Below, in pieces: positions 42,253 through 64,000 of a stretch of 64,000 bases of DNA; the first letter of the stretch is position 1, and every line of letters starts with the position of its first letter. Origin of the DNA: an uncultured Desulfobacteraceae bacterium (GTDB lineage Bacteria; Desulfobacterota; Desulfobacteria; Desulfobacterales; UBA5852); NCBI GenBank assembly GCA_913060875.1, contig CAJXSL010000001.1, forward strand, positions 764,464 to 828,463. The letters are read 5' to 3'. A program made the position numbers and the translations under genes. The notes under the pieces were generated by a model. It was not told the DNA's origin. It worked only from the letters and a program-made list of their open reading frames with translations, and ran no database searches.

Positions 42253-42257
42253 TCCAA

Positions 42258-42325: not shown

Positions 42326-42333
42326 TAATATTG

Positions 42334-43911: not shown

Positions 43912-43930
43912 TGTAAACCATGAGTTTACA
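43912..43930. promoter_or_regulatory. AbiE operator 2, overlapping the abiEi start codon
   Basis: TGTAAAC (43912-43918), CATGA, GTTTACA (43924-43930); the ATG of abiEi (43920) is inside. In the streptococcal AbiE system the antitoxin AbiEi represses its operon by binding two inverted repeats in the promoter; this arrangement fits that model. Confidence 0.75.
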
Positions 43931-45609: not shown

Positions 45610-45965
45610 CGAGCTTAGCGGCTTAGCGTGAGATATGGATTGTTTTTCGTCGTTTATATGAAAACTCAAAACGGCAGCATCACGCCAAGCCGCAAAGTAC
45701 GCAAAGAAAGGCAAAACACATGAATTTATTTGGCCTTCGGCCAACGCAACCGTTCCCATTTTTGGATTCATTCGAATCAGAAATGGGAACCCGCAGTTCA
45801 AAGCAGTTCTTGGCGTCTTCGCGGCTTTGCGTGAGGTATGCTGTTTTTGGTTTTCAGTATCGTGAGCCATGCTCTATCTGTGCAAATCAGCGTCGATCTG
45901 TGTCCCATTTTTTGTTTTTTGCATGAGATAATTTGCAGTTACAGCGCATTAGAAGAGGGGGATTG
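45610..45965. repeat. Intergenic repeats; right part duplicated at 48090-48223
   Basis: Contains TTAGCGGCTTAGCGTGAG, CGCCAAGCCGCAAAGTACGCAAAG and TTGGCGTCTTCGCGGCTTTGCGTGAGG. Then comes the 90-base leader of the RhuM gene (GTCCCATTTTTTGTTTTTTGCATGAG, TAATTTGCAGTTACAGCGC), which is repeated almost exactly before the second RhuM copy. No gene. Confidence 0.7.
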
Positions 45966-46439
45966 ATGACCACCGCTTACCCCGTTGAAATATTCCAGAC
46001 CGAAGACGGTCAAATTCGGCTTGAGGTTCAGCTTAGTGACGAGACGGTGTGGTTGTCCCAAGCTCAAATGGTAGCGCTTTTTGCCCGTGACCAGTCGGTG
46101 ATATCCCGTCACGTCCGTAATATTTTCAAAGAGGGGGAATTGGTTAAAGAAAGCAATATGCAAAAAATGCATATTGCCGGCTCAGACAAACCCGTAACTT
46201 TTTACAATTTGGACGTCATCATCTCGGTGGGCTACCGCGTCAAATCCCAACGCGGCGTACAGTTTCGCCAATGGGCCACCCAAACCCTCAAACAGCACCT
46301 GATCCAAGGGTACACGCTCAACCGTAAGCGGTTGGCCCAACTCGGCACGGACGTGGATCAGCTCATGGGGTTGATGCATAAAACCCTCTCTCAAAACAAT
46401 CTGGCCTTACCTGAGGGCGTGGCCATGGAGGGGACATGA
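45966..46439 (+). CDS. RhuM-family protein, short form (copy 1)
   Basis: A 157-residue protein with the N-terminal RhuM domain: FQTEDGQIRLEVQLSDETVWLSQAQMVALFARDQSVISRHVRNIFKEGEL, then FYNLDVIISVGYRVKSQRGVQFRQWATQTLKQHLIQGY. RhuM proteins occur on pathogenicity islands and beside toxin-antitoxin genes; many have a C-terminal Fic-like or extended domain of about 150 residues, which is missing here. The reading frame ends in ALPEGVAMEGT, and the following 65 bases are nearly identical to those after the broken second copy. So the short form probably arose by deletion. GAGGGGG precedes ATG 45966. Activity uncertain. Confidence 0.7.
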   Translation: MTTAYPVEIFQTEDGQIRLEVQLSDETVWLSQAQMVALFARDQSVISRHVRNIFKEGELVKESNMQKMHIAGSDKPVTFYNLDVIISVGYRVKSQRGVQFRQWATQTLKQHLIQGYTLNRKRLAQLGTDVDQLMGLMHKTLSQNNLALPEGVAMEGT

Positions 46440-46905
46440 TGATTACTGAATGACGATGGATGGAAAGGGGAGATTGACATAAAAACATAGACGTCCCACT
46501 TCTGTCCCGTCCCACTTCTGTCCGTTGCGCGGAGCGCCTACTCGCGTGCGGTGTAAATCAGTGCTCGTCAGTGGAAATCTGTGGCCAATTAGGGGTTTTA
46601 GGTTGTTAGATTTTTACGCGAAGCGCCTAAAAACTTGCAGTTAAAATCCGCGGGCATCAGCGTTCATCTGTGTCCTATTTGGTTTATAGCTGTTACGCGG
46701 AGCGCCTACACACGTGCAGTGCAAATCAGTGTCCATCAGTGGAAATCTGTGGCTAAACAATGGTTTTTGTCGTTATGTCTTTACGCGAAGCGCCTAAAAA
46801 CTTGCAGTTAAAATCTGCGTCCATCAGCGTTCATCTGTGTCCCATTCGTCGTTCTTGGCGACTTGGCGGCTTTGCGTGAGGAAAGATTTTTTAAAGGTAG
46901 ATCGC
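46434..46905. repeat. Duplicated RhuM tail and dispersed repeats
   Basis: Positions 46434-46498 (CATGATGATTACTGAATGA ... GATTGACATAAAAACATAGACGTCCC) match 48758-48820 closely. From 46500 to 46850 the GCGAAGCGCC / AATCAGTGTCCATCAGTG family recurs at least three times, and 46850-46882 is the GGCGACTTGGCGGCTTTGCGTGAGG type. No gene. Confidence 0.7.
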
Positions 46906-48060: not shown

Positions 48061-48223
48061 TGACCGGCAGCGGTCAATGCAGGCTGTTTTAATCAGTTCT
48101 TGGCGTCTTTGCGGCTTTGCGTGAGCCATGCTGTATCTGTGAAAATCAGCGTTGATCTGTGTCCCATTTTTTGTTTTTTGCATGAGGTAATTTGCAGTTA
48201 CAGCGCATTAGAAGAGGGGATCG
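48061..48223. repeat. Duplicated leader of the RhuM genes
   Basis: Bases from about 48095 (TTGGCGTCTTTGCGGCTTTGCGTGAG) to 48223 repeat 45810-45965 with few changes, including the Shine-Dalgarno of the RhuM gene. Confidence 0.7.
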
Positions 48224-48762
48224 ATGACCACCGCTTACCCTGTTGAAATATTTAAAACTGAAGACGGTCAAATCAAATTTGAGGTGCAACTCAAGGACGA
48301 AACCGTATGGCTCAGCCAGAAGCTGATGGCTGAACTGTTCCAAAAAGATGTTCGCACAATCAATGAACACCTCAAAAAAATCTATTCCGAAGGTGAATTG
48401 GAAATAGGGGCAACTATCCGGAAATTCCGGATTGTTCAGACGGAGGGCAAACGGCAGGTAGCTAGGCAAGTTGACTGCTACAATCTAGACGTGATTATCT
48501 CGGTGGGCTACCGCGTCAAATCACAACGCGGCGTGCAATTTCGCCAATGGGCCACCCAAACCCACAAACAACACCTGATCCATAGATACCCGAGTTCCTG
48601 TTATACCTCCAATCCCATGATCTGGAGCGTACCCCAGAGGGGCGTCAGCGTTTTGCGGACAATGCGCTGGTCGCATTAGCTTTGCTGGTGGCCGAAAGCG
48701 AGCCTTGGCAGAAAGCATTTATGATTAGGCTGATTCAGCACCTGATAAGGGAGGATGCATGA
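48224..48762 (+). pseudogene. RhuM-family gene, broken by internal deletion and frameshift (copy 2)
   Basis: The first 120 codons encode a RhuM N-terminal domain (FKTEDGQIKFEVQLKDETVWLSQKLMAELFQKDVRTINEHLKKI ... YNLDVIISVGYRVKSQRGVQFRQWATQTHKQHLI). After HLIHR the frame turns into non-family sequence and stops at 48679. In another frame, from about 48592 to TGA 48762, a typical family C-terminus is readable: FLLYLQSHDLERTPEGRQ, ADNALVALALLVAESEPW, FMIRLIQHLIRED. So the middle of the gene is deleted and the ends are out of frame. Compared with copy 1, this copy keeps the original 3' end. Confidence 0.75.
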
Positions 48763-48809
48763 TGATTACTGAATGATGATGGGTGAAAAGGGGAGATTGA
48801 CATAAAAAC

Positions 48810-48820
48810 ATAGACGTCCC
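48810..48820. repeat. Left boundary motif ATAGACGTCCC of the AT-rich island
   Basis: ATAGACGTCCC here is the reverse complement of GGGACGTCTAT at 59491-59501. A third copy lies at 46487-46497 after RhuM copy 1. The two island copies face each other across the methyltransferase-Vsr-Dpt block. Confidence 0.55.
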
Positions 48821-48942
48821 CTATCTGTCTGTCCTGTGCCGTATTCGTAACTGGTTTTTTGACGAGGGATTGATGAGTGTTGGCAAGGAGTACGAAGTCT
48901 TGGTATCCATATCCAAACAGGTTCAATCAGATCGCAACATGC

Positions 48943-49091: not shown

Positions 49092-50663
49092 ATGAATAAA
49101 GAAATCCCTGTAATTGATCTATTCGCAGGCCCAGGTGGACTTGGAGAAGGATTTAGCTCTTTTGAAGTAAAGGGAAGAAATCCATTTAATATCAGCCTTT
49201 CAATTGAAAAAGACTACTCTGCATACCGTACATTAAGGTTGCGCAGTTTTTTCAGAAAAATTCCATTTGAGGAATTGAGACAGGCATATATACAATTTGC
49301 GAAATCTGAGCGAAGCGAAAAAGATGAACATATTTTATATTCACAATTTCCATGGGCAGATTATGAGGTTAAGAATGAGGTTTTTTGTAAAGAGCTTGGC
49401 GGGGCGAATTTCCATCAATCTAATTTGGACAAGATTATCTCTGATAAAGTAAGTGATTCGAAGATGTGGGTACTTATTGGTGGACCACCATGTCAGGCAT
49501 ACTCTCTTGCTGGTAGATCAAGGTTAAGCAATCTTCGAAAAAATAATCCAGAACAATATGAGAATGACGAAAGGCATTACCTTTATAGGCATTATTTGAA
49601 AATCTTAGCTAATCATAAACCACCAGTTTTTGTAATGGAAAATGTTAAGGGGCTTTTATCTTCGAAAGTAAATGGATGCAGGATAATAGATAAAATTTTA
49701 CAAGATCTTTCTCAACCGAAACCTGATGGTAGCCTGAAGTATAATTTATATTCATTTGTAAAAAATAGGCAACAAAAATCATTGTTTCATACTGAATTAA
49801 AAAAGGTAAGTGATTATATAATTGAAGCTGAGCGATACGGTATCCCGCAGACACGCCACAGAGTAATAATATTTGGTGTAAGAAATGATATTAATATAAA
49901 ACCTGCCACTTTAAAAGAGGCTGATAGGGTGTGTTTGAGAGATATACTTAGTGATTTACCACGAATAAGAAGCGAAGTATCAATACGAGGTGACTCAAAT
50001 TTATCGTGGTCACAAACTATTAAAACAATAACGGAAAAATTAGGACGACATGAAAAGGACCACTGGCTTGTACCGATACTATTCATGAATTTGAATGATC
50101 TCGATGATACTCTGCCAACTGGAGGAAATTTCCTTAATTATTCTAAAGGAAGGCCACACAAAATAGTAAAAAAATGGTATCGAAAAGAGAACCTGCCGGG
50201 CGTATGTAATCACGAAGCAAAGTCTCATATGCCATCAGATCTACATAGGTATTTTTACAGCGCAAGTTTCATAAGTATGCATAAAAGTGTTGCTGATAAA
50301 AAATCTCCAAACCTTTCGGATTTTCCAAAGACATTACTTCCAAAACATAAGAATATCGATAAAGAAAGAGTTGAAAAAACAATATTTATCGATAGATTTC
50401 GAGTTCAACCATGGGACGATCCTGCAACTACTATTACCTCGCATATTTCGAAGGATGGCCATTATTATATTCACCCCGATTATCGTCAATGCAGAAGCCT
50501 GACAGTTCGCGAGGCTGCCAGAATACAAACATTCCCAGATAGTTATATTTTTCTTGGGAGCAGAACATCTCAATATTCCCAAGTTGGTAATGCAGTCCCT
50601 CCTATTCTTGCAGAGAAGCTAGCTTGTGTTGTTGCTGATCTCTTGGAGAGGTGGTGTGGATAA
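49092..50663 (+). CDS. dcm: DNA cytosine-5 methyltransferase
   Basis: A 523-residue C5-methyltransferase. Motif I DLFAGPGGLGEGF (8-20) binds AdoMet; motif IV GGPPCQAYSLAGRS (130-143) holds the catalytic Cys134. ENVKG near 182 is motif VI, QTRHRVIIFG near 256 motif VIII, and SLTVREAARIQTFPD with YSQVGNAVPP at the C-terminus are motifs IX and X. The long region between VIII and IX is the target-recognition domain; its target cannot be read. Extra residues between motifs I and IV make it longer than Dcm of E. coli (472). The gene is strongly AT-rich, unlike the backbone. Vsr follows after six bases, then the dptFGH genes, so its modification may be linked with either repair or restriction. Confidence 0.95.
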   Translation: MNKEIPVIDLFAGPGGLGEGFSSFEVKGRNPFNISLSIEKDYSAYRTLRLRSFFRKIPFEELRQAYIQFAKSERSEKDEHILYSQFPWADYEVKNEVFCKELGGANFHQSNLDKIISDKVSDSKMWVLIGGPPCQAYSLAGRSRLSNLRKNNPEQYENDERHYLYRHYLKILANHKPPVFVMENVKGLLSSKVNGCRIIDKILQDLSQPKPDGSLKYNLYSFVKNRQQKSLFHTELKKVSDYIIEAERYGIPQTRHRVIIFGVRNDINIKPATLKEADRVCLRDILSDLPRIRSEVSIRGDSNLSWSQTIKTITEKLGRHEKDHWLVPILFMNLNDLDDTLPTGGNFLNYSKGRPHKIVKKWYRKENLPGVCNHEAKSHMPSDLHRYFYSASFISMHKSVADKKSPNLSDFPKTLLPKHKNIDKERVEKTIFIDRFRVQPWDDPATTITSHISKDGHYYIHPDYRQCRSLTVREAARIQTFPDSYIFLGSRTSQYSQVGNAVPPILAEKLACVVADLLERWCG

Positions 50664-50669
50664 CAACTT

Positions 50670-51077
50670 ATGGCGGATAATCTATCAGTTGAGAAACGTA
50701 GCTGGAATATGTCCCGCATCAAAAGCAGGGACACTAAACCTGAAATCCTAGTCAGATCTATGCTGCATAGACTTGGTTACCGGTTCCGTCTAAACAGGAA
50801 AGACTTGCCTGGCTCGCCAGATATAGTATTGACTAAATATAAAATGGTGATTTTTGTTCATGGCTGTTATTGGCATCGTCATGAAGGATGTAAGTACACA
50901 TATAGTCCTAAAAGTAGGGTAAAATTTTGGGAAGAAAAATTCCGGAATAATGTCGAAAGGGACAGAAAGGTTATACATGCATTGGAGCAACTTGGTTGGC
51001 AGGTGCATGTTATTTGGGAATGCCAGACTAAAGATGTAGAAAATTTGGCTTTAAGGATAGCAAAGCTTTTCAGGTAG
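50670..51077 (+). CDS. vsr: Very short patch repair endonuclease
   Basis: Vsr nicks beside T:G mismatches that arise when 5-methylcytosine deaminates. The 135-residue protein shows the family pattern: WNMSRIKSRDTKPEILVRSMLHRLGYRFR, DLPGSPDIVLTKYKMVIFVHGCYWHRHEGC (catalytic Asp and zinc-binding Cys/His), and KFRNNVERDRKVIHALEQLGWQVHVIWEC. It follows the methyltransferase by six bases, the standard coupling of a C5-methylase with its repair enzyme. It is AT-rich, of the same origin as its neighbours. Confidence 0.95.
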   Translation: MADNLSVEKRSWNMSRIKSRDTKPEILVRSMLHRLGYRFRLNRKDLPGSPDIVLTKYKMVIFVHGCYWHRHEGCKYTYSPKSRVKFWEEKFRNNVERDRKVIHALEQLGWQVHVIWECQTKDVENLALRIAKLFR

Positions 51078-51227
51078 AAATATTAATTTTAGAAGATCAA
51101 TATTCGAATATATTATATTTTGTTTAAAAAAGATAGAGATAACATTTTTAGTATAAAAAGTGAAATAATGTATCAACTGTAAAGCGAGACAATTTAGAAT
51201 AATATTAACAAATAGAGGTATTAAAAT

Positions 51228-53066
51228 ATGATAAATCAGATTAATTCTCACGTAGAAAGGATGCACAATTATTTGCCATTTGATCCATCACATGATCAGA
51301 TCTATGAAGAGTATCAGGAATCTAAAGACTCACTTGAACTTACTACACAGGCGTTATTGTATTTGCGTGACATTCTGGAGTCCGATCCTCCTTCTGCAAT
51401 TATATTAACAGGTGATGCCGGTCACGGGAAAACGCATCTCTGTCGACGTCTAATCCAAGATTATTTAAAATATGATGATAAAGAGGCCAGAAAGCTCTTA
51501 GCTGGATCATGCCAAGGTGCTAAACCAATTCCATTTTGTAAAGATGTTAATTTTAGAAAACCACTGAGAATCTTTAAGGATTTTTCGGAATTTCCTGTCG
51601 AAGTCGCTGCCGACTACCTTGAAAGAGCACTTGATGACGAAAATGATATAACACTTGTTTGTGTTAATGAAGGACGATTAAGAGCAATTCTTGAAACTGA
51701 CAGCGGGCCTCACTCTATTAAATTTAAAAATGATTTTCATTCATCCTTTGAAAGCGGGCTCGCGTCATCAGATGGAAAAAACCATATAATAAACTTGAAT
51801 TATCAATCGGTTGCATCTGAAAAAAACAGCCTTGTAAAAAGAGCTCTACGTGAATGGCTTAAAGGTACTAGATGGCGAGTATGTAAAAAATGTGATTCTT
51901 CAAGTATCTGCCCAATATTTAAAAATAGAAAAATGCTTGTAGATGAAGCAGAACGGCAGAATCGTATAGAAGTGATATACTCAACAATAGAAAGATTGGG
52001 CACAGTTATAACTATTAGAGAACTGTTGATGAGTTTGGCTTATTTATTAACTGGAAATCTAAGATGCACTGATGTTCATAGGAACGTTAGAAAGAAAGGC
52101 TGGCAGAATGAATATGCTTATTATTCTCTTATGTTCTCTTCGCCTAGAAATATTTCGTCAGATAGAATAAGAAGGATACAGGTTCTTGCTGCATTTAAAA
52201 AGCTTGATCCTGGAAAGCATGCGATCCGAACAATTGATGATGTTCTTATAAATTTTCAGAATATTTTTCCACCTAGTGAAATCGACCTGTGCTTCAAGGG
52301 GAAAATAGATAAATCTGAAATCATAATTGATGCTGGAAATGGTATTGATGAAATTATTGGTAACGCTCGAAGCAGAAAAGAGCGTACACATGAATCCATA
52401 CTGATCCAAAATGTTGTACGTTCATTACGACGTAGATATCTGTTTGATAGACCAAATGGAGAAAAAACTTCATTCAGAAATCTGGGATTCGAGTATGCAC
52501 ATGAGTTTCTTTGGCTTGTCTCCAACAAGATAGACCATGCACGTAAAACGCGTATAAAAAGTATTCTTATAGGAGGCTTTCATACAATACAAGGACTTAA
52601 TGTAGGCTCCGACACAACACGTCTATTTCTTGTGGACCCTGCATACGGAAAAACAACAAACAGGGCTGCTATAATTGCTTACAAATTTCCAAGTAACAAA
52701 ATAAGTATTTTGACTCAAACAGAGAATTGGAAAGTCTCTGAGGAGGGTGAGAAATACACAATTCCATATTCCGTAGATTGGCTTGATCGTGAAGTTGTGT
52801 TGAATTTCAACCTACCTGATGGAGATTCTGAATATTTTCATCTGAATCTGATGACTTTTGACTACCTAATGCAGGCTGGATCAGGTTATGTGGCCCAGGA
52901 ATTCTACGCACACGATATAAGAAAGGCACTAAACTTTCTCGGAAGACTAGCAGAGAAATGCAGTGTAGTTTCTGAGAGCAGTATCGAGGCAGTGATTGAA
53001 GGATATACACATAACGTTCTTATAGAAGAGGGGAATGTTATTCAATCAAATAAGAAAGGTATGTAA
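51228..53066 (+). CDS. dptF: DptF-like protein (DNA phosphorothioation-dependent restriction, ATPase)
   Basis: A 612-residue P-loop protein: Walker A TGDAGHGKTHLCRRL (61-75) and a later acidic LVCVNEGR strand. A Cys cluster CKKCDSSSIC near residues 222-231 may bind zinc. Length, the early P-loop and the gene order with a 425- and a 1678-residue partner match DptF of dptFGH, the restriction arm that cuts DNA lacking Dnd phosphorothioate marks. It starts 150 bp after vsr with its own AT-rich upstream region, and DptG begins three bases after its stop. I identify it from pattern and synteny, not by alignment, so the family call is probable, not certain. Confidence 0.75.
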   Translation: MINQINSHVERMHNYLPFDPSHDQIYEEYQESKDSLELTTQALLYLRDILESDPPSAIILTGDAGHGKTHLCRRLIQDYLKYDDKEARKLLAGSCQGAKPIPFCKDVNFRKPLRIFKDFSEFPVEVAADYLERALDDENDITLVCVNEGRLRAILETDSGPHSIKFKNDFHSSFESGLASSDGKNHIINLNYQSVASEKNSLVKRALREWLKGTRWRVCKKCDSSSICPIFKNRKMLVDEAERQNRIEVIYSTIERLGTVITIRELLMSLAYLLTGNLRCTDVHRNVRKKGWQNEYAYYSLMFSSPRNISSDRIRRIQVLAAFKKLDPGKHAIRTIDDVLINFQNIFPPSEIDLCFKGKIDKSEIIIDAGNGIDEIIGNARSRKERTHESILIQNVVRSLRRRYLFDRPNGEKTSFRNLGFEYAHEFLWLVSNKIDHARKTRIKSILIGGFHTIQGLNVGSDTTRLFLVDPAYGKTTNRAAIIAYKFPSNKISILTQTENWKVSEEGEKYTIPYSVDWLDREVVLNFNLPDGDSEYFHLNLMTFDYLMQAGSGYVAQEFYAHDIRKALNFLGRLAEKCSVVSESSIEAVIEGYTHNVLIEEGNVIQSNKKGM

Positions 53067-53068
53067 TT

Positions 53069-54346
53069 TTGAAGGCACCTGAAGTTTCACATGAAATTTT
53101 TGGCGGCATATTCGATTATGATGGTGGCGGAATGTACCCAGGCCTTGAACTTTTGAGCCTTGTGTTTGGAGCTAATTCTAAAGGTATATTACCCCTTGAA
53201 GAAGAAATAGAGTTTATAAAACAATCTCAGCATTTTGCTAGACGGCTGGTCTGGGATTATGAAAGGCTAAAGCAAGAATCTGACTATAAAAATACTTTTG
53301 TCGAAGAGCATACAGGGGAGGTTGTGAGAAATCTTCTATCATGCTTACAGGTTCCAATACCAAACATTTCAAAAGCACCTTCATGGGAAAGAGCACATTT
53401 TTTTCCTTACTGTCAAGCTTTAATTCATTGGGATGCAAGAAAGAGAGGTGCAAAGTATAATATCGAGAGGCGGTATTACAGAGGAGGAGGGGCTTTAGCA
53501 CATAAAGTGCTCCGCTTAGATAAAGACCACGAAAGGCTGCAGGAGATAAGAAAGGGGCTTGAAAACCTATATAAAACTAATGATTATTCAGCACTTCAGA
53601 AATTAGCAGGTGTAATGAGGGAACAAGGCTTAGAATCTCCTCCATTGAAAGACACAAAAGAAGTGCAAAGTCAATTAAGAGATTCAGAGACTGATGATAT
53701 TTTAAGAGAAGGTGTACGAAACATCACAAGTCATACTGAACTTTCTTGCGCAACAAGAATAAAGGCATTGCTGAATTGGACAGCATTTTGGCTAGTTATT
53801 GTCCAAACAAAACGATCGGCATCCTATCTTGGGAAAGAAGCACTTCCAATTATAGTCGACTGTGGATCAACTCCTGGGCAGTTAAGGCGTGCTTCTACAA
53901 GGAGACATAATGAAATTAGAGCTATGATAGGTAATGCTGTTGATAAATGTACTAAAAATTATGAAAAAGACAAACTTTCTCGAAAAAAATGGCATAAGAT
54001 CCAGGGATTTTTAACGGTAAACTGTGCTACCATAGGGCTGCTAAATGCTTTCAAAGGAAAAAGACATTTTACATTGGGAATTGGTTTGCTGGAAACACTT
54101 GTACTGGCAGCTACTTATCGTAATAATGAAATCTCGTTTGATAGGTTTTCAAATGATTTATTGTACAAAAAGTGGAATCTTGTTGTTGGAAGACCAAGTG
54201 CTGAATTGGCAGGATTACTAATAATGTTCGATGCCAGTATATTTGAAGACAATGAAGAACAACTATCAAATCAAATGAAAGCTGCTGGATTAATAACGGA
54301 TTATTCAGATGCAACAAGAATGGTTAGTACAAAGGGGCTGACGTGA
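53069..54346 (+). CDS. dptG: DptG-like protein (phosphorothioation-dependent restriction)
   Basis: A 425-residue protein without known catalytic motif. It has FDYDGGGMYPGLELLSLVFGANSKG at the start, a basic helical middle (ERRYYRGGGALAHKVLRLDKDHERLQEIRKGLENLY), and a C-terminal helical domain. Position two in the operon and length fit DptG, which forms the restriction complex with DptF and DptH. The start is TTG 53069, with AAAGG about ten bases upstream, three bases after dptF. Its last bases overlap the GTG of dptH (GTGA). No homologous motif outside the Dpt system is visible to me. Confidence 0.7.
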   Translation: MKAPEVSHEIFGGIFDYDGGGMYPGLELLSLVFGANSKGILPLEEEIEFIKQSQHFARRLVWDYERLKQESDYKNTFVEEHTGEVVRNLLSCLQVPIPNISKAPSWERAHFFPYCQALIHWDARKRGAKYNIERRYYRGGGALAHKVLRLDKDHERLQEIRKGLENLYKTNDYSALQKLAGVMREQGLESPPLKDTKEVQSQLRDSETDDILREGVRNITSHTELSCATRIKALLNWTAFWLVIVQTKRSASYLGKEALPIIVDCGSTPGQLRRASTRRHNEIRAMIGNAVDKCTKNYEKDKLSRKKWHKIQGFLTVNCATIGLLNAFKGKRHFTLGIGLLETLVLAATYRNNEISFDRFSNDLLYKKWNLVVGRPSAELAGLLIMFDASIFEDNEEQLSNQMKAAGLITDYSDATRMVSTKGLT

Positions 54347-57300
54347 AAAATATCAATAGAATATTAGCAAAAACGATTTTTCGAATCGTTAGGAAAGAAC
54401 TATCAACAGAACAGTGCCTTGAGATTAGAAGGCCTAGTGTAAGATTGAAAGATTTAAGATATGGTGAAGTCATTGCTTTTCTAGAAGAGTGGGAAAATAG
54501 AAAAGCAGCTAGTGGATTAAGCGATGTGCAAGTCGTCATTGCTAGGGGCGGAGAAGCGTCATATCCTAAAATGTTTCTTGCAAAAAAAGATTGTTCCGTA
54601 ACCTATTACCGTAACAATAATGCAAATGGACTCATTTATATACAGACAAAGACAGAAAGTGACGAACAGGGACTGCAGTCCATGTTTACTGTAAGAGACA
54701 GAAATTTTCTTGATGGAACCTTCGATGATGAAAACTTCGACGTAAAACAAGAGCTTGTCAAAGCGTCTTGGGAATGCTCTGCAGAGGCAGACATAAAAAT
54801 ACCTGATGAATTAAAAAAAATGCTTATTTTTGTACTGGATGCATTGCACCCCGATCCTTTTTCTGTACCTGTTAGATCTTACTGCGGATTTTTAGATTAT
54901 GTAATAAAGCAAATAATTGCTCCACCTTATAAAGCTTTAGACTTTAATGAATTAGCAGAAATAATAGGCAAATCTCTTTGTAAATTAGGTCTTTTCCCAG
55001 ATGTATTCTGGGAAAAAAACCGAAGCTTTCATGCAATAAAAAGGCGTCTTGCTACTAATTTTTATTATTCTGAAATGCTTAACCCTAGCGGTAACGAAAT
55101 TAATCAGAATGATTTGAATGATACAATAGAAAAGAAAAATGATTTTAGAAACTATAACGAAGAACTGTTTGAACCCCAAGAACAAGAATATTGGCGAGAG
55201 CTTTGTTTAAAATTCTGCCAAGATCATAATATAATTGATGTCAGGGAAAAAATACCATTTTATATATATGAACAACTTTTTAAAAAAAAGGCATCGGGAA
55301 GACCGTTAGGAGAACGAGTTGAAACGGAGATAGGGAATTATTCACATGATCGACTATATGAATTTAATTTACTAGATGTTAAAGAGGGTTTGTCGAGGAA
55401 TGTTGCTGAGGATGCACAAAAGTTTCTTGAAGCAGAACCAACAGATCCGAATGAAAATAATTTACTCAGAGATATTCTTTCAAAAACGACCCTAAGAATG
55501 GTTAAAAGGATTGCTTTCCCTGCTGCAAAGCCTTTCAGTAATCCACTTATTCAGCTTATAGAAATAATACGCGAATTTTATACCATTATAAATGATGATC
55601 ACTCAAATTATGTCCTTAAAATGGAGCTTGGAAAAGGTCCTAATGATATTTCTGCATCTATAGGTCTTTTTACCTTTTTATTTGGTAAAACGTTAAGGAC
55701 ATTAGTAGAGATCAATCGTGATGACGTAACAGGTCTTCAAATTGAAATCTCTAAAGAATTATTAGAGATACAGCACCTTGATACTATCAGAAATATGAAA
55801 GAAGATGATTATGAATCAGAGGCAATAGAAAAAACGCAATGGAATCCATTGCCAATTGATTTTAGCCTAATAAAAAATGATAAAGAAATCATTAACACTG
55901 TGAACAATTGCGTATGGAAGCCGGAAAATATTGAGTATTTATCACTATTGTGGGTAATAATTGCATCTCCGGAATTCACAGACAATCGAAATGACCTTAT
56001 AGAGCATTTTTGGGAGATCCCTATTGATCAGACACTTGATGAATGGGTTGAAGCTGTCTCCTCAAGATTATCACCGACGCACAATATTAGACTTAAATCA
56101 TTTTCCCAAGAAGCGATGAAAAGTAATATAATTATAGAAATGATAGAAAATAAAAAACAATTTTTTTCTAACGTTTGTAATTACGGTCTATCAATTGAAG
56201 CTATATCAGAATATGCAGAAAAATGGGAAAGTCTTTTGTATGATGCTAAAAGAGATTACATTCCTAAAGGTATTATAGAAAAAAGACTTGAAACGTTTCT
56301 TTCATATGACACTATTTATGATAGAAACCAGAACAAATTGTTGTTATTAGCCACTCACCCCTTTAGATTAAAATGGTTTGCAGAGTATCTCAATGAAATC
56401 CTTAATGTATTAATTAAGGTCATTTCTTGTGAGCTTGTACTTAACAAAGAGAATGAAGACTTCTATCTATCTCATTTAAAGAACCTCTCACCTCACAAAT
56501 ATCCACCTGTAATTTCAAACAATCGCAGAGAAACTCTAATTGCAACTAAGGAAACAGGACTGCATGAGCATTTTTCACCTATTAAATCAGAAAACAGGAC
56601 AAGCAGCCGTTGGACTGAAACTGTGGATAAAGCCTCTGTTGAAGAAATTGCTAATCTAATAAAAACATACTTGGAAAGCCATCCACATAAAAAAGATGGT
56701 CTTGCCCTTTTAACTGTTCTTCCAAGTGGAGGTAGTTTTCCTTTAAATCTTGTAAGTGCTGTTAGAAAAGGAGAATGGAAAGATCTCTCAATTAATTTTC
56801 ACGTTATAGCGCCGAGACATACTTGGCCAAATATCATCAGTGATTTTGAAAAAATAGAATCGGGTAACAGAATGACAATGCCTGATAGAATCTTCCCTCC
56901 TTTACAGTTAAAAATGTATGATTTACATGAATCATTAGAAAATTCTGTAGCATTAGAAAAAATAACATGTGATTTAGCAATTGTGCCTAATTTTTTTGGC
57001 AACAGTACTGAAATTACGGAACGGACAATAGAAGAGACCTCTAGATCAGGAAGTTATAATTTGCTCTGGGACAGAACTACTCATATCGAAAAAGGATCTT
57101 CAGGTGGTACTGTCTCAATCGCTCTTAGGCCATATGAAGCTGATAACACACTTGACTGTTGGTCATCCATAAACGTTAGAATGATGAGATGTAAACTTAT
57201 AGCCGCTGATAACCCAGAAATTACGGAATTTTTCGAAATAGCCGTGATTTTCGAAAATGCAGTGGATCTTTTTAATATTCTCCATAAACGCTCTCATTGG

Positions 57301-59379
57301 GTTATAACACTCGATCAGTTTATTGGGAGAGAACAGATTGAAAGTTTGCCTGAAAAGCCGGATGTTCTTACCATCAAGGAAGGTATTGGTGGAAATGGTT
57401 TATACACCTTAATAGTGTCTTCCAATGTCGGTAGGAAGTATATTCAAGATCGCCTTGACCGAAAAATAAAAAATATTGATTCTGATGCGATTGCAGAATG
57501 TAACACAAAAGCTTTGTCTGAAAAAATATATAACGAAATACGTAATATTGCACCGAGCCTTGTACTACGAGCGATGGGCCTTTCCCGGATAACTGAAGAA
57601 ATTTTAGGCCTTATGATTGCTAAAAATATAGCAAGTCGTTTTTTTCCTGAAAACTTTAGAGATGGAATTACAGCATGGTTATCATTGGATGATTATCCAG
57701 AGTGGTTTGAAAGTGGAGATTCAGCGACAAGAGCGGATCTCTGTAGAATCACTTTCTTTAGAGAAAAAAAGCGATTAAAAGTTGATATATTAGTTGTTGA
57801 AGGTAAGCTTAGGCAGATTTTTGATAGTCATGGAGTTAGACAGGTTTCGAGAACAATGAGGCTTTTTGAAGAAATATTCAATCCTATCGAAAATGATAAG
57901 CTAGCCCATGATTCCAAACTATGGAGAAAAACAATAATATCGGCTATAGAGAATACAAGTAGCAACGCACGAAAAATTATCGGTTTAAAAGATTTTAATA
58001 ATGATATTTTTAGGATACCAGATGATATAAGAAATGATTTTCGCGCTGGTGAATTCGAAGTACACTCTATTAATGGGATTTATTCAATATGCCTTTACAA
58101 CAAAAAAGGCAAAGTTTCACAAGAACAAAAAAATTGCGTTAATGTATTCACTTCGTATGGAAATGAAGTACTTGAATTAATCGAGCAAAAAAAGAGAATT
58201 CTTGTTGACGAACAAAATGAAATATTTCATGAAAGTGAATATCTTAAAAAATCCAAAAAAGATAAAGAAGTCTTAATAAATAATGATATGGAAAAAGGCA
58301 ATGAAGTATTTAATGACAAACCTAATGGCCTTCCTAAAATTGTTCTTGAAAACAAATATCAGACAGTTCTTGATACTTTTAGTGAATTCAACATTAAAGT
58401 CAATAAACCAGTCGATTCTATAGAAAACTATGTCGAGGGACCGGCTTCGATACTTTTCCGCGTAACTCCGGATACCGGGATTAAACCAGATCATCTATCT
58501 ACTTGCAAAGATGCCCTAAAATTAAAATTATCGCTACCTGAAGAAGCCGATATAAGATTCTCCATAGGAGATGGTACTGTAAATATTGATATTCCGAAAG
58601 ATGAAAAAGAAAGATATTTTATAGATGCTATGTCAATGTGGGAAAAATGGAAAGGGTTTTATTCCGACCAATTAAGTGTCCCTTTGGGAGAAGACAGGTA
58701 TGGAAAGATAGTTGCTATCAACTTCTCATCCTCCAATTCACCACATCTTTTAATAGGTGGTACTACTGGTAGTGGAAAGTCAGAAGCGCTGAATACAATT
58801 CTTCAAGGTATGATAAGGTATTATAGTGAGACCTCTTTAAGATTGCACTTAGTTGATCCAAAAGGAACTGAACTATTGGAATTTGAGAATTGCCCACATC
58901 TTGTAGGAGATATTGGCTGGGACAGTGATGATGCAATTTTAATTTTGCAAAATGCTGTTGATGAAATGCAAAAAAGATATAGGGCTTTTAAAAATAGTAA
59001 AACTAGAACTCTTAAAGACTTTAACTCTAAAGTGAATAAGGGACTTCCTTGGTGGGTAATTGTTTTAGATGAATATGCAGACCTAACATCCGAACTTGAA
59101 GAAAAAAAGAAAATTGAGATGAGCCTAAAGCGATTAGCTCAGAAGGGGAGGGCTTGCGGGATACATGTCATCATAGCTACTCAGAAACCAAGTGCCGAAG
59201 TGATAAGCACAAATCTCAGGTCAAACCTTCCAGCTCAGATTGCCTTGCGTGTGAAAAGCAGTATTGAGAGCGGTGTCATCATAAGCATGAAAGGAGCCGA
59301 GACTCTTAATGGGAAAGGAGATGCCTTTTTTCATGCAGAAGGGAAATTAACTAGGGTACAATGCGCTATAGTACGTTAG
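54343..59379 (+). CDS. dptH: DptH-like protein with C-terminal FtsK/HerA translocase domain
   Basis: A 1678-residue protein. The first 1400 residues are helical/beta with no motif I can assign; a charged Lys/Glu-rich linker lies about 1290-1330. The C-terminus is an FtsK/SpoIIIE-type DNA-pumping ATPase: Walker A GGTTGSGKSEALN (about 1472), LVDPKGTELL, Walker B WWVIVLDEYADL (about 1570), GIHVIIATQKPS and GVIISMKGAETLNGKGDAF. This giant FtsK-tailed protein as third gene is the hallmark of DptH. It presumably translocates and cleaves unmodified DNA in complex with DptF and DptG. GTG 54343 overlaps the dptG stop by four bases. Highly AT-rich. No dndBCDE modification genes are in the window. Confidence 0.8.
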   Translation: MKNINRILAKTIFRIVRKELSTEQCLEIRRPSVRLKDLRYGEVIAFLEEWENRKAASGLSDVQVVIARGGEASYPKMFLAKKDCSVTYYRNNNANGLIYIQTKTESDEQGLQSMFTVRDRNFLDGTFDDENFDVKQELVKASWECSAEADIKIPDELKKMLIFVLDALHPDPFSVPVRSYCGFLDYVIKQIIAPPYKALDFNELAEIIGKSLCKLGLFPDVFWEKNRSFHAIKRRLATNFYYSEMLNPSGNEINQNDLNDTIEKKNDFRNYNEELFEPQEQEYWRELCLKFCQDHNIIDVREKIPFYIYEQLFKKKASGRPLGERVETEIGNYSHDRLYEFNLLDVKEGLSRNVAEDAQKFLEAEPTDPNENNLLRDILSKTTLRMVKRIAFPAAKPFSNPLIQLIEIIREFYTIINDDHSNYVLKMELGKGPNDISASIGLFTFLFGKTLRTLVEINRDDVTGLQIEISKELLEIQHLDTIRNMKEDDYESEAIEKTQWNPLPIDFSLIKNDKEIINTVNNCVWKPENIEYLSLLWVIIASPEFTDNRNDLIEHFWEIPIDQTLDEWVEAVSSRLSPTHNIRLKSFSQEAMKSNIIIEMIENKKQFFSNVCNYGLSIEAISEYAEKWESLLYDAKRDYIPKGIIEKRLETFLSYDTIYDRNQNKLLLLATHPFRLKWFAEYLNEILNVLIKVISCELVLNKENEDFYLSHLKNLSPHKYPPVISNNRRETLIATKETGLHEHFSPIKSENRTSSRWTETVDKASVEEIANLIKTYLESHPHKKDGLALLTVLPSGGSFPLNLVSAVRKGEWKDLSINFHVIAPRHTWPNIISDFEKIESGNRMTMPDRIFPPLQLKMYDLHESLENSVALEKITCDLAIVPNFFGNSTEITERTIEETSRSGSYNLLWDRTTHIEKGSSGGTVSIALRPYEADNTLDCWSSINVRMMRCKLIAADNPEITEFFEIAVIFENAVDLFNILHKRSHWVITLDQFIGREQIESLPEKPDVLTIKEGIGGNGLYTLIVSSNVGRKYIQDRLDRKIKNIDSDAIAECNTKALSEKIYNEIRNIAPSLVLRAMGLSRITEEILGLMIAKNIASRFFPENFRDGITAWLSLDDYPEWFESGDSATRADLCRITFFREKKRLKVDILVVEGKLRQIFDSHGVRQVSRTMRLFEEIFNPIENDKLAHDSKLWRKTIISAIENTSSNARKIIGLKDFNNDIFRIPDDIRNDFRAGEFEVHSINGIYSICLYNKKGKVSQEQKNCVNVFTSYGNEVLELIEQKKRILVDEQNEIFHESEYLKKSKKDKEVLINNDMEKGNEVFNDKPNGLPKIVLENKYQTVLDTFSEFNIKVNKPVDSIENYVEGPASILFRVTPDTGIKPDHLSTCKDALKLKLSLPEEADIRFSIGDGTVNIDIPKDEKERYFIDAMSMWEKWKGFYSDQLSVPLGEDRYGKIVAINFSSSNSPHLLIGGTTGSGKSEALNTILQGMIRYYSETSLRLHLVDPKGTELLEFENCPHLVGDIGWDSDDAILILQNAVDEMQKRYRAFKNSKTRTLKDFNSKVNKGLPWWVIVLDEYADLTSELEEKKKIEMSLKRLAQKGRACGIHVIIATQKPSAEVISTNLRSNLPAQIALRVKSSIESGVIISMKGAETLNGKGDAFFHAEGKLTRVQCAIVR

Positions 59380-59490
59380 AGGCACTCAACGGGATCGCTC
59401 ATTAAAGGGGCCGTCAAAGGGAAAAACACTCCATTGTCCGAAAGAAGCAGTTGCGTTTTTACAGTTTACATTGACAACAGGCGGAGAGAT

Positions 59491-59501
59491 GGGACGTCTA
59501 T
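59491..59501. repeat. Right boundary motif GGGACGTCTAT of the AT-rich island
   Basis: Reverse complement of the motif at 48810-48820. It stands 46 bases before a REP-associated transposase fragment, where such sequences usually flank the transposase gene. Confidence 0.55.
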
Positions 59502-59546
59502 CTTATTATGCTTTACTAACCCTCATTGCCTTGCTATCCTTCCATA

Positions 59547-59828
59547 ATGCCACGTCAAGCCCGCATCGATGCACCGGGAGCGGTGCATCACATCATTGTT
59601 AGAGGGATCGAGGGTCGTAAGATCTTCCGCACCGATGAGGACCGTAAGGGATTTGTCGAAAGGTTCGAAAGCCTCATAACCGAAACCGGTACCCAGTGCT
59701 TGTCCTGGGCATTGATTTCCAATCACCTGCACTTGTTGCTGGGATCGAGCGACGTGCCGATCGCAAGCGTCATGCAGCGCCTGCTTACCGGGTATCCGAA
59801 CAGCTTAACGGCTATAATGGGACACTGA
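59547..59828 (+). pseudogene. Truncated REP-associated tyrosine transposase (RAYT, IS200-like)
   Basis: The frame opens with MPRQARIDAPGAVHHIIVRGIEGRKIF and continues to ISNHLHLLLGSSDVPIASVMQRLLTGY, the Y1 transposase/RAYT pattern with the metal-binding HxH. Normal RAYTs have 200-300 residues with a catalytic Tyr further on; here the frame derails after LLTGY and stops. A shifted frame (GYNGTLKAG) vaguely recalls the next conserved block (RHxGHLFQ). So the gene is a remnant, unable to act by itself. Confidence 0.8.
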
Positions 59829-60851: not shown

Positions 60852-61835
60852 TCAGCTGAGGTTTATGACCGGGTCCGAAAACACGGATGCATTTTCCGGC
60901 AGCGGGTTGTCGCCCTTTTCGATACCCTTCTCCGTGACGCTTTTGAGCCCGTTCAATTTTTTCGAACCATCGAGAGCACCGGCGCCATCAGTGTAATATT
61001 CGAACCAGGGCAAGCCGTGGTCGGCATACTCCCTGGCCGTCATGGGAACCGTGGGCGGATTGTCGCCGGTGACGGCCCGCCAGACCAATGAGTTGGCCAG
61101 GTGGACAAAACACCTGCTTTTGTGACCCATCTCCCAGTCGTCCATGTCGTAGGGATCCTCATAGATTTCCTGGCGCATGCGACCGCCGGGCGCCAATCCC
61201 ATATCCATGCAGGGCTCAGCCAGACTGTACATCACGTGATCGTCCAACCTGCGGCGATATACCTGTTTGGGAAAGAGGCGTTCAAATGACGCGCGTTTCA
61301 TCGGGTAAACCATGACCTGGAGCCCGCCGAATTCACCGCTGCCGGTCAACTGCTCCTCGGCACTGTAGCCGGAGCCCAACGGCATGGCCACGAACTGGCG
61401 GATGAAGCCCTTCTCCACGCTGAAACCGTCCAGCCAGGGCTGGTCCGGTGCAACCATGTAGTCCTGAGGATTGCCCTGCAGCCAGTCCGTCCAATTGTCG
61501 CCGGTCACCGCATTGATCTTGCCGGTGGCCACCTTGATGGCAAACGGATAATCCGTACCGTGACCGGGAATGTGATCCGAGCTGAAATTCAGCCAGAGCG
61601 CTTCCGACTGGTACATGGGGAGCATCACGCCGCCGTGCCGTTCCCACTGTTTGGGCAGGTTTGCCCTGAAATCGTCGATGTGTCTGACGGGGAACCGCCC
61701 CAGCCCCGGGGGCAGGGGATAGTCCTTGCCGTCATCCGGTATCCGGAGGGTCCTCTGGAAATCGATGGTCAATTTTGCTTTGGGATGAACCTCGGGGAAT
61801 GTGAACACGAGGGAGTCGTTTTTCAGCTCAATCAC
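60852..61835 (-). CDS. Conserved-looking protein of unknown function, partner of an XRE regulator
   Basis: A 327-residue soluble protein without a family I can name. It begins with a beta-rich LVFTFPEVHPKAKLTIDFQRTLRIPDD. It has several motifs that look conserved: GGVMLPMYQSEALWLNFSS, YPFAIKVATGKINAVTGDNW, QPWLDGFSVEKGFIRQFVAMPLGSGYSAEEQLTG and GGLQVMVYPM. Trp, Tyr and Gly are frequent, and a CFVHLANSLVWRAVTG block follows. The start is GTG 61835, seven bases after AAGGAGG. It lies 15 bp after the XRE gene, in one operon. The XRE-plus-effector layout resembles toxin-antitoxin or stress modules, but nothing shows toxicity. Confidence 0.7.
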   Translation of the reverse strand: MIELKNDSLVFTFPEVHPKAKLTIDFQRTLRIPDDGKDYPLPPGLGRFPVRHIDDFRANLPKQWERHGGVMLPMYQSEALWLNFSSDHIPGHGTDYPFAIKVATGKINAVTGDNWTDWLQGNPQDYMVAPDQPWLDGFSVEKGFIRQFVAMPLGSGYSAEEQLTGSGEFGGLQVMVYPMKRASFERLFPKQVYRRRLDDHVMYSLAEPCMDMGLAPGGRMRQEIYEDPYDMDDWEMGHKSRCFVHLANSLVWRAVTGDNPPTVPMTAREYADHGLPWFEYYTDGAGALDGSKKLNGLKSVTEKGIEKGDNPLPENASVFSDPVINLS

Positions 61836-61850
61836 GGTTTGTCCTCCTTG

Positions 61851-62210
61851 TTACCAATCGCCGTCGCGCACCTCACGCACAATCCGGAGCACGGCGTGGT
61901 CGGGCATGTCTTTCAGTTCACGGATGAGTTGTGCAAACAAAAGCGGCCGCTTGCGGATGATCTCCTGGACGTCCTGGGAAATTTTTCCGCTCAGGGCCAG
62001 CAGGACATCCGGATCCTCGCCCAGGTCCTCGGCCAGAGCCCGTATCTTGTCCTCGGTGAGGTAGGCTTTCAGATCGCCCCGCTCGATCTTGCTGAGATAG
62101 GACGGCTCGACCCCCATCCGCATGGCGACCTGTCTCACGGAATAGCTGCGGTCCTGGGCTTTGAGCCGCTCGCGCTTGTCACGAATATATTGACCGAATG
62201 TGTTTTTCAT
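61851..62210 (-). CDS. XRE-family transcriptional regulator
   Basis: A 119-residue DNA-binding protein. A Cro/C1-type helix-turn-helix covers about residues 6-60, with recognition region SVRQVAMRMGVEPSYLSKIERG and the follow-on ALAEDLGEDPDVLLALSGKI. The C-terminal 40 residues are helical. ATG 62210 lies only three bases from a TGTGTA-N8-TACACA palindrome and about eight bases from a consensus -10, so the message is nearly leaderless and no Shine-Dalgarno exists. It likely represses its own promoter and that of the partner gene 15 bp downstream. Confidence 0.88.
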   Translation of the reverse strand: MKNTFGQYIRDKRERLKAQDRSYSVRQVAMRMGVEPSYLSKIERGDLKAYLTEDKIRALAEDLGEDPDVLLALSGKISQDVQEIIRKRPLLFAQLIRELKDMPDHAVLRIVREVRDGDW

Positions 62211-62212
62211 AC

Positions 62213-62246
62213 TGTGTAGTATATAGTACACAAAATAAGCTGTCAA
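62213..62246 (-). promoter_or_regulatory. Consensus promoter overlapping a palindromic operator
   Basis: On the minus strand TTGACA (62246-62241), 17 bases, TATACT (62223-62218). The palindrome TGTGTA-N8-TACACA (62213-62232) covers the -10 and the predicted start site. Expected transcripts begin within a few bases of the XRE start codon. Confidence 0.8.
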
Positions 62247-62282
62247 CAACCATTCAGAGTTTTTTTCCCGATTTGCTGAAAC

Positions 62283-63923
62283 TTATTGATATTTTGTTTT
62301 CTCGGATAACTGAACCCATTCACGAAGGGTTTTTACTGTCACATCCACGAGAGATCCAGCTGACACGCCTCTCATTCTGGCAACACGTCGTACTTCTGAT
62401 CCGATCCAAGACTGAAACACTTGTTGAACGGCTTTGGTCGTAAGTGGTTTGGCTGAGTCAAGCAAGTCGTCCAATGGGGAGTTGTTTACAAAACGAAAGG
62501 CTACTTCCCTTGCCATATCGCTATTGATGGGTTTGGTTACGGAATCAAACGATGTCGGTAACCATTTTTTCAATTCAGATTCGTCGGGCGGAGTTGAGGT
62601 GTGCCAATGGGCTAAAATGCGCCATCCAATAGCATACAGATTGCGCAAATTACCAGGCAAAGGGTGATTTCGAAGGAATTGCACCACTGTCTCGTGTCCG
62701 ACTTCGGGCAGAGCAAAGTCGACACCGGCTTCGTTACATACTGATTCAAAAACGTCACGCCACAACCATGACAAATCCTCGGGTATCTCTCGGAGGGAAG
62801 GGGCACGCATTCGAATGAGGGCGATGCGGTCAAAGAAATCCTGGTCTAAACGGTCCCGGAGGTTCTCCAGGGGGATATTGGTAGCGGTGATCAAACGGAA
62901 CTGACTTTGTTTCCATCGGGTCTCACCGAGGGGCTGATAGCGTCCCTCTTCAATAGCCTTGATGAGCAGGCGTTGCATTTCTCGCGAAATATCCCCCACC
63001 TCATCAAGGAACAGAGTGTCGCCGTTGGCATTTGCCAGGAGCCCTTGTTTGGTTTCGGAAGCCCCTGTGAAAGCTCCCTTTACATAGCCGAAAAGCTCGG
63101 CACGCATTGTTGCCGGCTGGTACTGGCCACAGGCGATGGCAGGCCAGCCCTCGTCGAGATCCGCTTTGCGAAAGGGGCTGTTGAAACGGATCCAGTTGGC
63201 AAGGGTCGTTTTGCCGGTTCCTCTTTCCCCGAGAATCATTACAGGGACTCGGAGGCTCGCTACCTTTTCTGCCTCCGAATAGAATCGCTTTAGCACGTCA
63301 CTTCGGAATTGAGCCGGATCCCAGGAAATTTTTTCTGAACTGACAGATGTCTCCTTGGGGCGGGTTTTTCGGTATTTTTTGTAAAATGTTTCGATTCCGA
63401 TTTGGATTTGCTTTACCGCCGAGCGGTCCATGCGGTCTCCGGGGCGAATGGATTTCAGGAGTTGGAACGGTTCCCGAATAAAACCGGTTTCACCCATCAA
63501 TACCCAGATCGTTTGCATGGACGGGGTACCCGGGCTCGTGTGGATGAGGAGTTCTCTGTTTGGAAACCGGTTTCGGATATGCGGTATTTCTTTGCGCAGA
63601 AAATCGAATATCGATGTATGGTCAGTGGGGTCGGAACCATTCCAGACTATTTTTTCGCAAGTGATGGTGGGGTCCTGCTCCAGGATTTCACTAAAGGTGG
63701 CATTCACTCGCTCAAGGGAGGCGCTTTCGTTACGACAGAGCATCACCACATGATCTACCTTTCCTTTATATCGGGAATCCGCATCGAAAAGAAACGCAAG
63801 GGTGGGGCCGGGAATGGGACGTCCCGCAGAGTCGATTCGGTACTTTCCCGTTTTTCGATTTCGTTCATAGGGGTCATTGTTGAATGCGACCCAGCTTACA
63901 AGCACACCGCTGCGATTTTTCAT
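62283..63923 (-). CDS. RtcR-like regulator: CARF-like sensor plus sigma54 AAA+ domain
   Basis: A 546-residue bacterial enhancer-binding protein. Residues 1-190 look like an RtcR/CARF-type Rossmann sensor: opening VLVSWVAFNNDPY, strand VDHVVMLCR, and LLIHTSPGTPSMQTIWVLMGE, comparable to the HITTGTHVAQ segment of RtcR. Residues 215-440 are the sigma54 AAA+ domain: Walker A GERGTGKTTL (about 233), GYVKGAFTGA (about 280) with the intact sigma54-contact loop, and DTLFLDEVGDI as Walker B. A helix-turn-helix lies at about 505-540. RtcR senses cyclic-phosphate-ended RNA and switches on rtcBA; no rtc gene is here. The ATG at 63923 overlaps the stop of an upstream gene (ATGA), so I prefer it to an ATG 12 codons earlier. 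Confidence 0.8.
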   Translation of the reverse strand: MKNRSGVLVSWVAFNNDPYERNRKTGKYRIDSAGRPIPGPTLAFLFDADSRYKGKVDHVVMLCRNESASLERVNATFSEILEQDPTITCEKIVWNGSDPTDHTSIFDFLRKEIPHIRNRFPNRELLIHTSPGTPSMQTIWVLMGETGFIREPFQLLKSIRPGDRMDRSAVKQIQIGIETFYKKYRKTRPKETSVSSEKISWDPAQFRSDVLKRFYSEAEKVASLRVPVMILGERGTGKTTLANWIRFNSPFRKADLDEGWPAIACGQYQPATMRAELFGYVKGAFTGASETKQGLLANANGDTLFLDEVGDISREMQRLLIKAIEEGRYQPLGETRWKQSQFRLITATNIPLENLRDRLDQDFFDRIALIRMRAPSLREIPEDLSWLWRDVFESVCNEAGVDFALPEVGHETVVQFLRNHPLPGNLRNLYAIGWRILAHWHTSTPPDESELKKWLPTSFDSVTKPINSDMAREVAFRFVNNSPLDDLLDSAKPLTTKAVQQVFQSWIGSEVRRVARMRGVSAGSLVDVTVKTLREWVQLSEKTKYQ

Positions 63924-64000
63924 GAAGTCAGCTCTCCATTTGTTTCCTGATTGCCGCAATGAGGACAGAGGAAACGGTTTTTACCCAGCGGAAGAGCCAG
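63920..64000 (-). CDS. C-terminal end of a zinc-ribbon-like protein (partial)
   Basis: The minus-strand frame entering from the right edge ends at TGA 63922-63920 and overlaps the ATG of the RtcR-like gene by four bases. The 26 visible residues include GKNRFLCPHCGNQETNG, a CxxC knuckle typical of zinc ribbons. The overlap means the two genes are cotranscribed, so this unseen protein is probably functionally tied to the regulator. Confidence 0.6.
   Translation of the reverse strand: MALPLGKNRFLCPHCGNQETNGELTS

Follow-up and report, generated by a model that had tools for sequence, protein, structure and literature searches.

How does a set of F-G-H restriction genes tell self from foreign DNA when its neighbours encode a C5-cytosine methyltransferase (MTase) and a Vsr protein in place of a phosphorothioation (PT) machinery? 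The question is raised by an operon in the window, that is, the whole stretch of 64,000 nucleotides that was analysed. The sequence-only reading of this DNA had proposed a hybrid restriction-modification system. This proposal gains support from three observations. Related loci split into those with MTase and Vsr and those with SspB, SspC or SspD, neither a DndC/SspD gene nor the DUF4007 domain was found in the genome of the window (G000), and this genome has a single C5-MTase. We suggest, with a probability of roughly 0.78, that the genes of the operon encode a restriction system coupled to cytosine methylation, with 5-methylcytosine (5mC) replacing PT as the self mark.

The five genes are listed in Table 1 together with motifs and domains of F and H. 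They are co-directional and AT-rich as had been described, with 6 bp between MTase and Vsr, 150 bp between Vsr and F and an overlap of 4 bp between G and H; the gap between F and G had to be corrected from 3 bp to 2 bp. Vsr is the sole gene which separates MTase from F in the window. The gene content given earlier (a C5 methylase, Vsr, a P-loop protein, a protein of 425 residues and an FtsK-tailed protein of 1678 residues) agrees with the Pfam, TIGR and PADLOC matches and with the translations.

Table 1. Genes of the operon and features of the F and H proteins (positions in the window).
Feature	Position	Strand	Remarks
C5 MTase gene	49092..50663	+	523 aa
Vsr gene	50670..51077	+	135 aa
F gene	51228..53066	+	612 aa
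Walker A of F, residues 61-69	51408..51434	+	translation; invariant columns in 8 sequences
G gene	53069..54346	+	425 aa, TTG start
H gene	54343..59379	+	1678 aa, GTG start
Predicted PD-(D/E)XK nuclease region of H, about residues 1050-1290	57490..58212	+	invariant motif residues; modest structural likeness
FtsK/SpoIIIE motor of H, residues 1441-1617	58663..59193	+	PF01580 6.8e-33; FtsK 2iuu 7e-43

The GC content of the five genes is 0.346-0.400 compared with 0.587 over positions 1-48000 of the window; the nearest upstream windows (42-49 kb) have 0.49-0.54. In the other five genomes of the family (six searched including the own) we found no counterpart of F. The low GC content together with the lack of F in these relatives indicates that the AT-rich island was probably acquired. 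A 26-nt inverted repeat (85%) flanks the island on both sides (46478-46503 and 59485-59510) and occurs again near 48801-48826, where repeat D7 has its second copy. At 59526-59828 there is the frame of a truncated IS200-like transposase, below the Pfam cut-off. Repeat and frame are possibly the trace of the element that delivered the island. Part of a RhuM-family gene, flanks included, occurs in two copies (45793-46506 and 48083-48829; blocks D3-D7, 80-96% identical), and a gene which from reading of its frame is FAD-oxidoreductase-like sits between them. At 46524-46855 a 76-nt unit occurs four times in tandem, in imperfect copies with a spacing of 79-89 nt. Upstream of the island PADLOC detects an AbiEi/AbiEii toxin-antitoxin pair (9.9e-80 and 1e-116; 43920-45609). 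The minus strand at 60852-63959 carries an RtcR/PspF-like activator with a CARF domain (3.9e-137) together with a small HTH gene and an uncharacterised 327-aa protein, which could form a second defence-linked module. The window further carries a c-di-GMP-I riboswitch at 126-210 and a c-di-GMP-I-GGC riboswitch at 42252-42326.

The MTase matches PF00145 (1.3e-48, Pfam) and TIGR00675 (above the cut-off), carries the PCQ and ENV motifs and is the only PF00145 match in the whole genome at E<=0.001. It is predicted to be the self-marking enzyme. Its nearest PADLOC model is DrmMII (5.1e-92); the DrmMII of DISARM methylates CCWGG. The matches in the PDB, M.HaeIII and Dnmt-type enzymes, cover only the catalytic parts. 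Vsr matches PF03852 (3.4e-31) and TIGR00632 (154.1 bits, cut-off 97.85) and is predicted to repair the T:G mismatches which deamination of 5mC leaves behind.

In Pfam, neither F nor G has a match that passes the cut-off. In PADLOC, F matches SspF (9.7e-56) and DndF at only 4.7e-07, G matches SspG (1e-14) and H matches SspH (8.5e-83) and mad8 (5.2e-23). F has the invariant residue N147 and zinc-type cysteines (C219, C222, C228; columns invariant across 8 sequences). An asparagine in the Walker B motif of DndF is described in a passage of PMC10853773, and our analysis places N147 at this position. Four F proteins of the same type as that of the window (window-type, see below) score 98-188 bits against the PADLOC SspF models, compared with 475-882 bits for three F proteins of PT-associated loci (PT-type). 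The window F is 18-22% identical to the F proteins of seven PT-type plasmid loci (alignment A1). By these scores, F, G and H belong to a divergent SspFGH-like clade which lacks a strong PADLOC model. A structural model of G (AF2, built from 28 window-type sequences, pLDDT 92.1) has the fold of DndG; it matches the DndG structure 7exx with Z 14.9 over 323 residues (rmsd 5.7), and the next best match has Z 4.5. Thus G and DndG share a fold according to the model, even though SspFGH and DndFGH lack significant sequence identity according to PMC8092258.

H appears to be composed of an N-terminal region, a predicted PD-(D/E)XK-type nuclease region and an FtsK motor with the Walker A motif at residues 1473-1479; the FtsK alpha domain (PF17854) is matched just at the cut-off. 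Five positions, E1086, D1132, E1153, K1155 and Q1167, as well as the core Walker residues are invariant in all 81 aligned sequences (46 window-type and 35 PT-type). A model of residues 930-1330 (pLDDT 80.3) resembles the PD-(D/E)XK nucleases HamA, McrC, MspJI, BsmI, Nt.BspD6I and FokI at Z 3.4-5.7, in a list that also contains short matches to unrelated proteins at Z 4.8-5.2. The best Foldseek E-value for the nuclease region is 0.078. As these structural scores are modest, the conserved motif is the stronger argument for a nuclease. For DndH, a restriction endonuclease domain is known from PMC10853773.

The genes had been called DptFGH-like. This label is appropriate as a statement of distant homology, as the DndG fold of G illustrates, and not as one of family membership, since at E<=1 none of F, G and H has a listed match to TIGR03236, TIGR03237 or TIGR03238; of these three profiles only TIGR03237 is known to be in the library. 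Run over the genome, the TIGR03237 profile gave no match, as was also the case for the positive controls. We therefore rejected F, G and H as Dpt family members; their nearest models are SspF, SspG and SspH, and SspFGH-like is the label to use in its place. It had also been considered that dnd genes lie elsewhere in the genome. The assembly of G000 is 99.7% complete in 30 contigs. In it PF01507 gives one match below the cut-off, in asparagine-synthase/NadE-like frames, and this match was rejected as DndC/SspD; in the control, the FGH-linked SspD exceeded the cut-off in 5/5 PT genomes. DUF4007, the domain of SspB, has no match in G000 and in 26 further window-type genomes (27 tested, of 47 loci) and is present in 5/5 PT genomes. 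With no DndC-type gene and no DUF4007 in G000 and with positive controls, these searches for DndC/SspD and SspB give no sign of PT genes elsewhere in the genome.

We asked which partner genes accompany FGH in other genomes. An SspF alignment, run against 84,980 genomes, gave 372 relatives. The best 80 of the 372 were kept; by F similarity they comprise 46 window-type loci, 31 PT-type loci and three fragments (L122, L124 and L155), which were dropped. Together with the window there are 47 window-type loci; together with seven plasmid loci, which were read among 17 plasmid hits and put on the PT side, there are 38 PT-type loci. The border between the types is a gap in the F E-values from 8e-58 to 3e-39 among the complete loci; it was drawn after the neighbours were visible, and the F tree made afterwards split the same sets. 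Two of the loci, L118 and L119, are near copies in one genome. The window-type F proteins of the survey are 25-47% identical to the F of the window. The 46 window-type survey loci (among the best 80 of 372) are spread over six named phyla, with 25 loci in Actinomycetota and 17 in Pseudomonadota, and over 27 named genera, three loci being without a genus.

The neighbours differ almost completely between the types, the survey part being the best 80 of 372 in each count. A C5-MTase is near FGH in 42/47 window-type and 0/38 PT-type loci, as seen with a profile made from the MTases of the surveyed loci, which could therefore miss an unrelated C5-MTase on either side. Vsr is found in 31/47 and 0/38 loci, and at least one of SspB, SspC and SspD in 0/47 and 35/38. 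The expectation that related loci repeat the combination of a C5-MTase and Vsr with FGH and without dnd genes is thus borne out. Five window-type loci have no linked MTase. Three of them extend only 62-403 bp upstream of F; the other two, from Nocardia (L111 and L114), have full flanks and no C5-MTase within 10 kb upstream and 3.5 kb downstream of FGH. Each of the five genomes has one or more C5-MTases elsewhere, one of which is 57% identical to an FGH-linked MTase. The two Nocardia genomes (G767 and G768) have one unlinked C5-MTase each, which shares about 45% identity with the MTase beside FGH in L096, and the loci of these two MTases share 1,164 nt at 78.6% identity. The unlinked Nocardia MTases may act in trans. 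The PT-type exceptions to SspB/C/D are two loci near an end and one complete locus, L153, with neither SspB/C/D nor a C5-MTase in its stretch; partners can thus be missing on the PT side too.

Further searches added little. In the phylum F was searched in 395 genomes with eight matches including the own, and in the order in 389 with nine including the own; the rest are partial matches of 22-29% identity, so that no second strong F turned up in the group of the window. A scan of genome contigs with SspG alone gave 82 stretches, none of them confirmed. In viral contigs nothing was confirmed with A1, the N-terminal part of SspH or SspF, and 2/33 stretches found with A3 are relatives. SspG gave no tblastn match in plasmids, and a phage collection gave none with the DNA or with F. 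Whole SspH matched ordinary FtsK proteins in six genomes. In the titles and abstract openings of the papers listed no C5-MTase is paired with FGH.

The 47 window-type sequences form one side of a branch of the F tree (SH-aLRT 100), which is a quick tree with long-branch warnings. The nearest MTase of the 42 loci is upstream and divergent in 18, upstream and co-directional in 13, downstream and convergent in ten and downstream and co-directional in one. Mapped on the F tree, the arrangement changes at least 13 times, where four states need a minimum of three changes. Since the MTase re-associates with FGH in all four arrangements, two independent defence modules that happen to lie side by side, which the sequence-only reading had considered, are unlikely. 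The ENV motif is present in 42/42 MTases and a PCQ-type motif in 37/42 by pattern and in L106 and L117 by alignment. In ten actinobacterial loci (L101, L102, L105, L107, L109, L110, L112, L113, L115 and L120) Vsr lies downstream of H and the MTase upstream of F, so Vsr accompanies FGH even away from that MTase. Two C5-MTases are found beside FGH in L098, L101 and L102.

The MTases themselves are variable. At 38% identity they fall into nine clusters, six of them with a single member; the nine cluster changes on the tree carry little weight by themselves, as nine clusters require at least eight. More telling are L106 and L108, with F, G and H 90-91% identical and the MTases 32% identical. At least there, the MTase has been replaced and FGH kept. 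We compared 15 actinobacterial loci (11 with an MTase of cluster 0 and four of cluster 2) in sliding windows of 50 alignment columns and found no strongly divergent FGH segment that matches the MTase cluster. There are mild dips near column 200 of F and columns 700-775 of H and a variable linker near columns 1425-1475 of H, and the lowest scores belong to N-terminal stop-to-stop extensions. The two MTases that were aligned still have residues in common near the expected target-recognition region, so it is possible that the exchanged enzymes keep an unchanged target. As the MTase was swapped within the 5mC clade at about 90% FGH identity, the cue for FGH may be the chemistry or the density of the mark to a larger extent than its sequence.

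MTases of this family are also found away from FGH. A scan of viral contigs with the MTase gave 35 loci. The ten closest (L021-L030) have MTases 40-46% identical to that of the window; from reading of the frames, seven are HATPase-Z1-DUF4420-AIPR-like, two DISARM-like and one ends at the contig edge. In L024 only the start of the former gene set is present. Pfam confirms Z1-AIPR-type domains in L021 and an MZB domain in L022. Of 48 plasmid records with the MTase three were read, and the annotated one has the same Z1-AIPR set. The viral and plasmid loci outside FGH which were read have no match to F or G; in the viral locus L036 there is an FtsK-type match to H. Vsr adjoins the MTase in several Z1-AIPR-type loci. 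The cassette of MTase, HATPase, Z1, DUF4420 and AIPR recurs, often with Vsr, in L018-L021, L024, L025 and L027-L030 (plasmids and viral contigs). Judged by its occurrence in Z1-AIPR and DISARM-like loci, the MTase family is a common marker for several multi-gene restriction systems and is not dedicated to FGH.

We suggest that the system works as follows. The MTase would mark the host genome with 5mC at its target and Vsr would mend the T:G mismatches that arise from deamination of 5mC. F, G and H would form a restriction machine, in analogy to SspFGH and DndFGH, which attacks DNA without the mark, presumably that of phages. G with its DndG fold could bind DNA and F could bind a nucleotide with its P-loop, and both would license H. 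The FtsK motor of H could then translocate on the DNA and the PD-(D/E)XK domain would either cut or nick it. Marked DNA would be spared, with one of the subunits probably serving as reader of the mark.

Several points speak against this explanation. An FGH 90-91% identical beside MTases 32% identical would be surprising in an enzyme that reads sequence, except if the MTases have the same target. Two Nocardia loci have no linked MTase, the MTase family also serves other systems, the structural likeness of the nuclease region is modest, and the PT-type locus L153 is complete and yet has no SspB/C/D. DndFGH has moreover been proposed to be standalone (PMC10853773, in a passage on these proteins). 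One could thus regard FGH as a standalone counter-invader and the MTase-Vsr pair as an independent marker or the remnant of a former restriction-modification system that shares the same defence islands; the close MTase relatives beside HATPase-Z1-DUF4420-AIPR or DISARM-like genes fit this picture. Yet clustering in islands alone is not expected to produce MTase counts of 42/47 against 0/38, nor the SspB/C/D split, and the re-association in four arrangements, with only Vsr between MTase and F in the window, also argues against independence. We consider such a standalone FGH improbable.

A regulatory role of the MTase, as an epigenetic switch or by control of the FGH promoter, would suit the 18/47 loci in which it is divergent from F, a layout permitting promoter control, and the wide variation of MTases next to a hardly changing FGH. 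For the downstream convergent MTases (10/47) promoter control is less natural, the association with Vsr would imply widespread 5mC with a mutational cost, and the PT-type homologues use the modification as self mark (PMC8092258, in the part on these homologues), so that we give regulation without self-marking very little credit. Hardly credible at all is that the operon belongs to MADS or DISARM as a diverged representative instead of being a variant of its own. The mad8 score of H and the DrmMII score of the MTase point in this direction, and F-G-H of MADS are relatives of F-G-H of the window. On the other hand, the operon has no kinase part in F and no N6-MTase, MADS7 reaches an E-value of 0.079, far below the cut-off, and F and H have no listed match to MADS6 and MADS8, whereas locus L070 passes all three NCBIfam cut-offs. 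MADS-type and window-type F are separate on the F tree, and no DrmA, DrmB or DrmC is found among the ten window proteins scanned with PADLOC, which contain the DrmMII-like MTase only.

If 5mC gates FGH as we suggest, in vitro methylation of DNA would be a simple on/off test, and the PT-type and 5mC-type FGH are natural pairs for locating the mark-reading subunit. The findings touch on a dispute between an FGH with a modification partner (argued in a part of PMC8092258) and a standalone FGH (argued in a part of PMC10853773); in the genomic split, every FGH clade is associated with a single chemistry. They also point to a defence family, mostly of Actinomycetota and Pseudomonadota (46 loci among the best 80 of 372), which is weakly matched by the PADLOC SspF models. 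The presence of a cytosine MTase gene beside this DNA-attacking complex in several phyla suggests that the same engine has been refitted to read another self label. Tentatively, and at somewhat less than even odds, FGH could be a modification-agnostic engine re-coupled to at least three marks, namely PT (SspBCD), N6-methyladenine (MADS) and 5mC, with the chemistry or density of the mark possibly being sensed over its sequence.

How does the operon compare with known systems? SspABCD-SspFGH has the same F-G-H order, a Walker A motif in F and an FtsK-like end of H, its PADLOC models match the window proteins, and the E, D, ExK and Q positions of H are invariant in both types. It differs in having SspB/C/D, where the window-type loci have a C5-MTase and often Vsr, and in its longer G (about 509-589 aa compared with 421-480 aa). 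According to a passage of PMC8092258, SspFGH without its PT mark damages DNA and impairs growth, and the mark relieves both. DndFGH/DptFGH shares the fold of G, the order F-G-H and the combination of a P-loop protein with a nuclease-motor protein. It is set apart by the missing TIGR matches, the poor DndF score and the lack of a DndC-type gene in G000, and it has been argued to be standalone, that is, without an inbuilt modification module (PMC10853773, in the passage mentioned above). DISARM with DrmMII and the HATPase-Z1-DUF4420-AIPR loci use the same C5-MTase family with other restriction genes and without a match to F or G.

Closest in concept is MADS, where MAD6-MAD7-MAD8 are FGH relatives with a DNA methyltransferase as partner in place of PT; FGH relatives thus lie beside a DNA methyltransferase as in the window. 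In the same phylum L067, L070 and L073 look MADS-like from reading of the frames, and L070 alone was tested with NCBIfam. Likewise by frame reading, L062-L065, L069, L071 and L072 have F-G-H with a PAPS-reductase-like gene and mostly a long F of kinase size; for L064 the PAPS reductase and DUF4007 are confirmed. L070 with its MADS6, MADS7 and MADS8 has an N6-type MTase, a specificity-type subunit, mad2- and mad5-like proteins and an F bearing NERD/kinase parts, whereas in the window a C5-MTase and Vsr accompany an F that is not fused. FGH relatives coupled to methylation are thus not without precedent. New compared with MADS, as far as the genes tell, are the C5 methylation, the presence of Vsr and the unfused F, in an F clade of its own for which PADLOC has no strong model.
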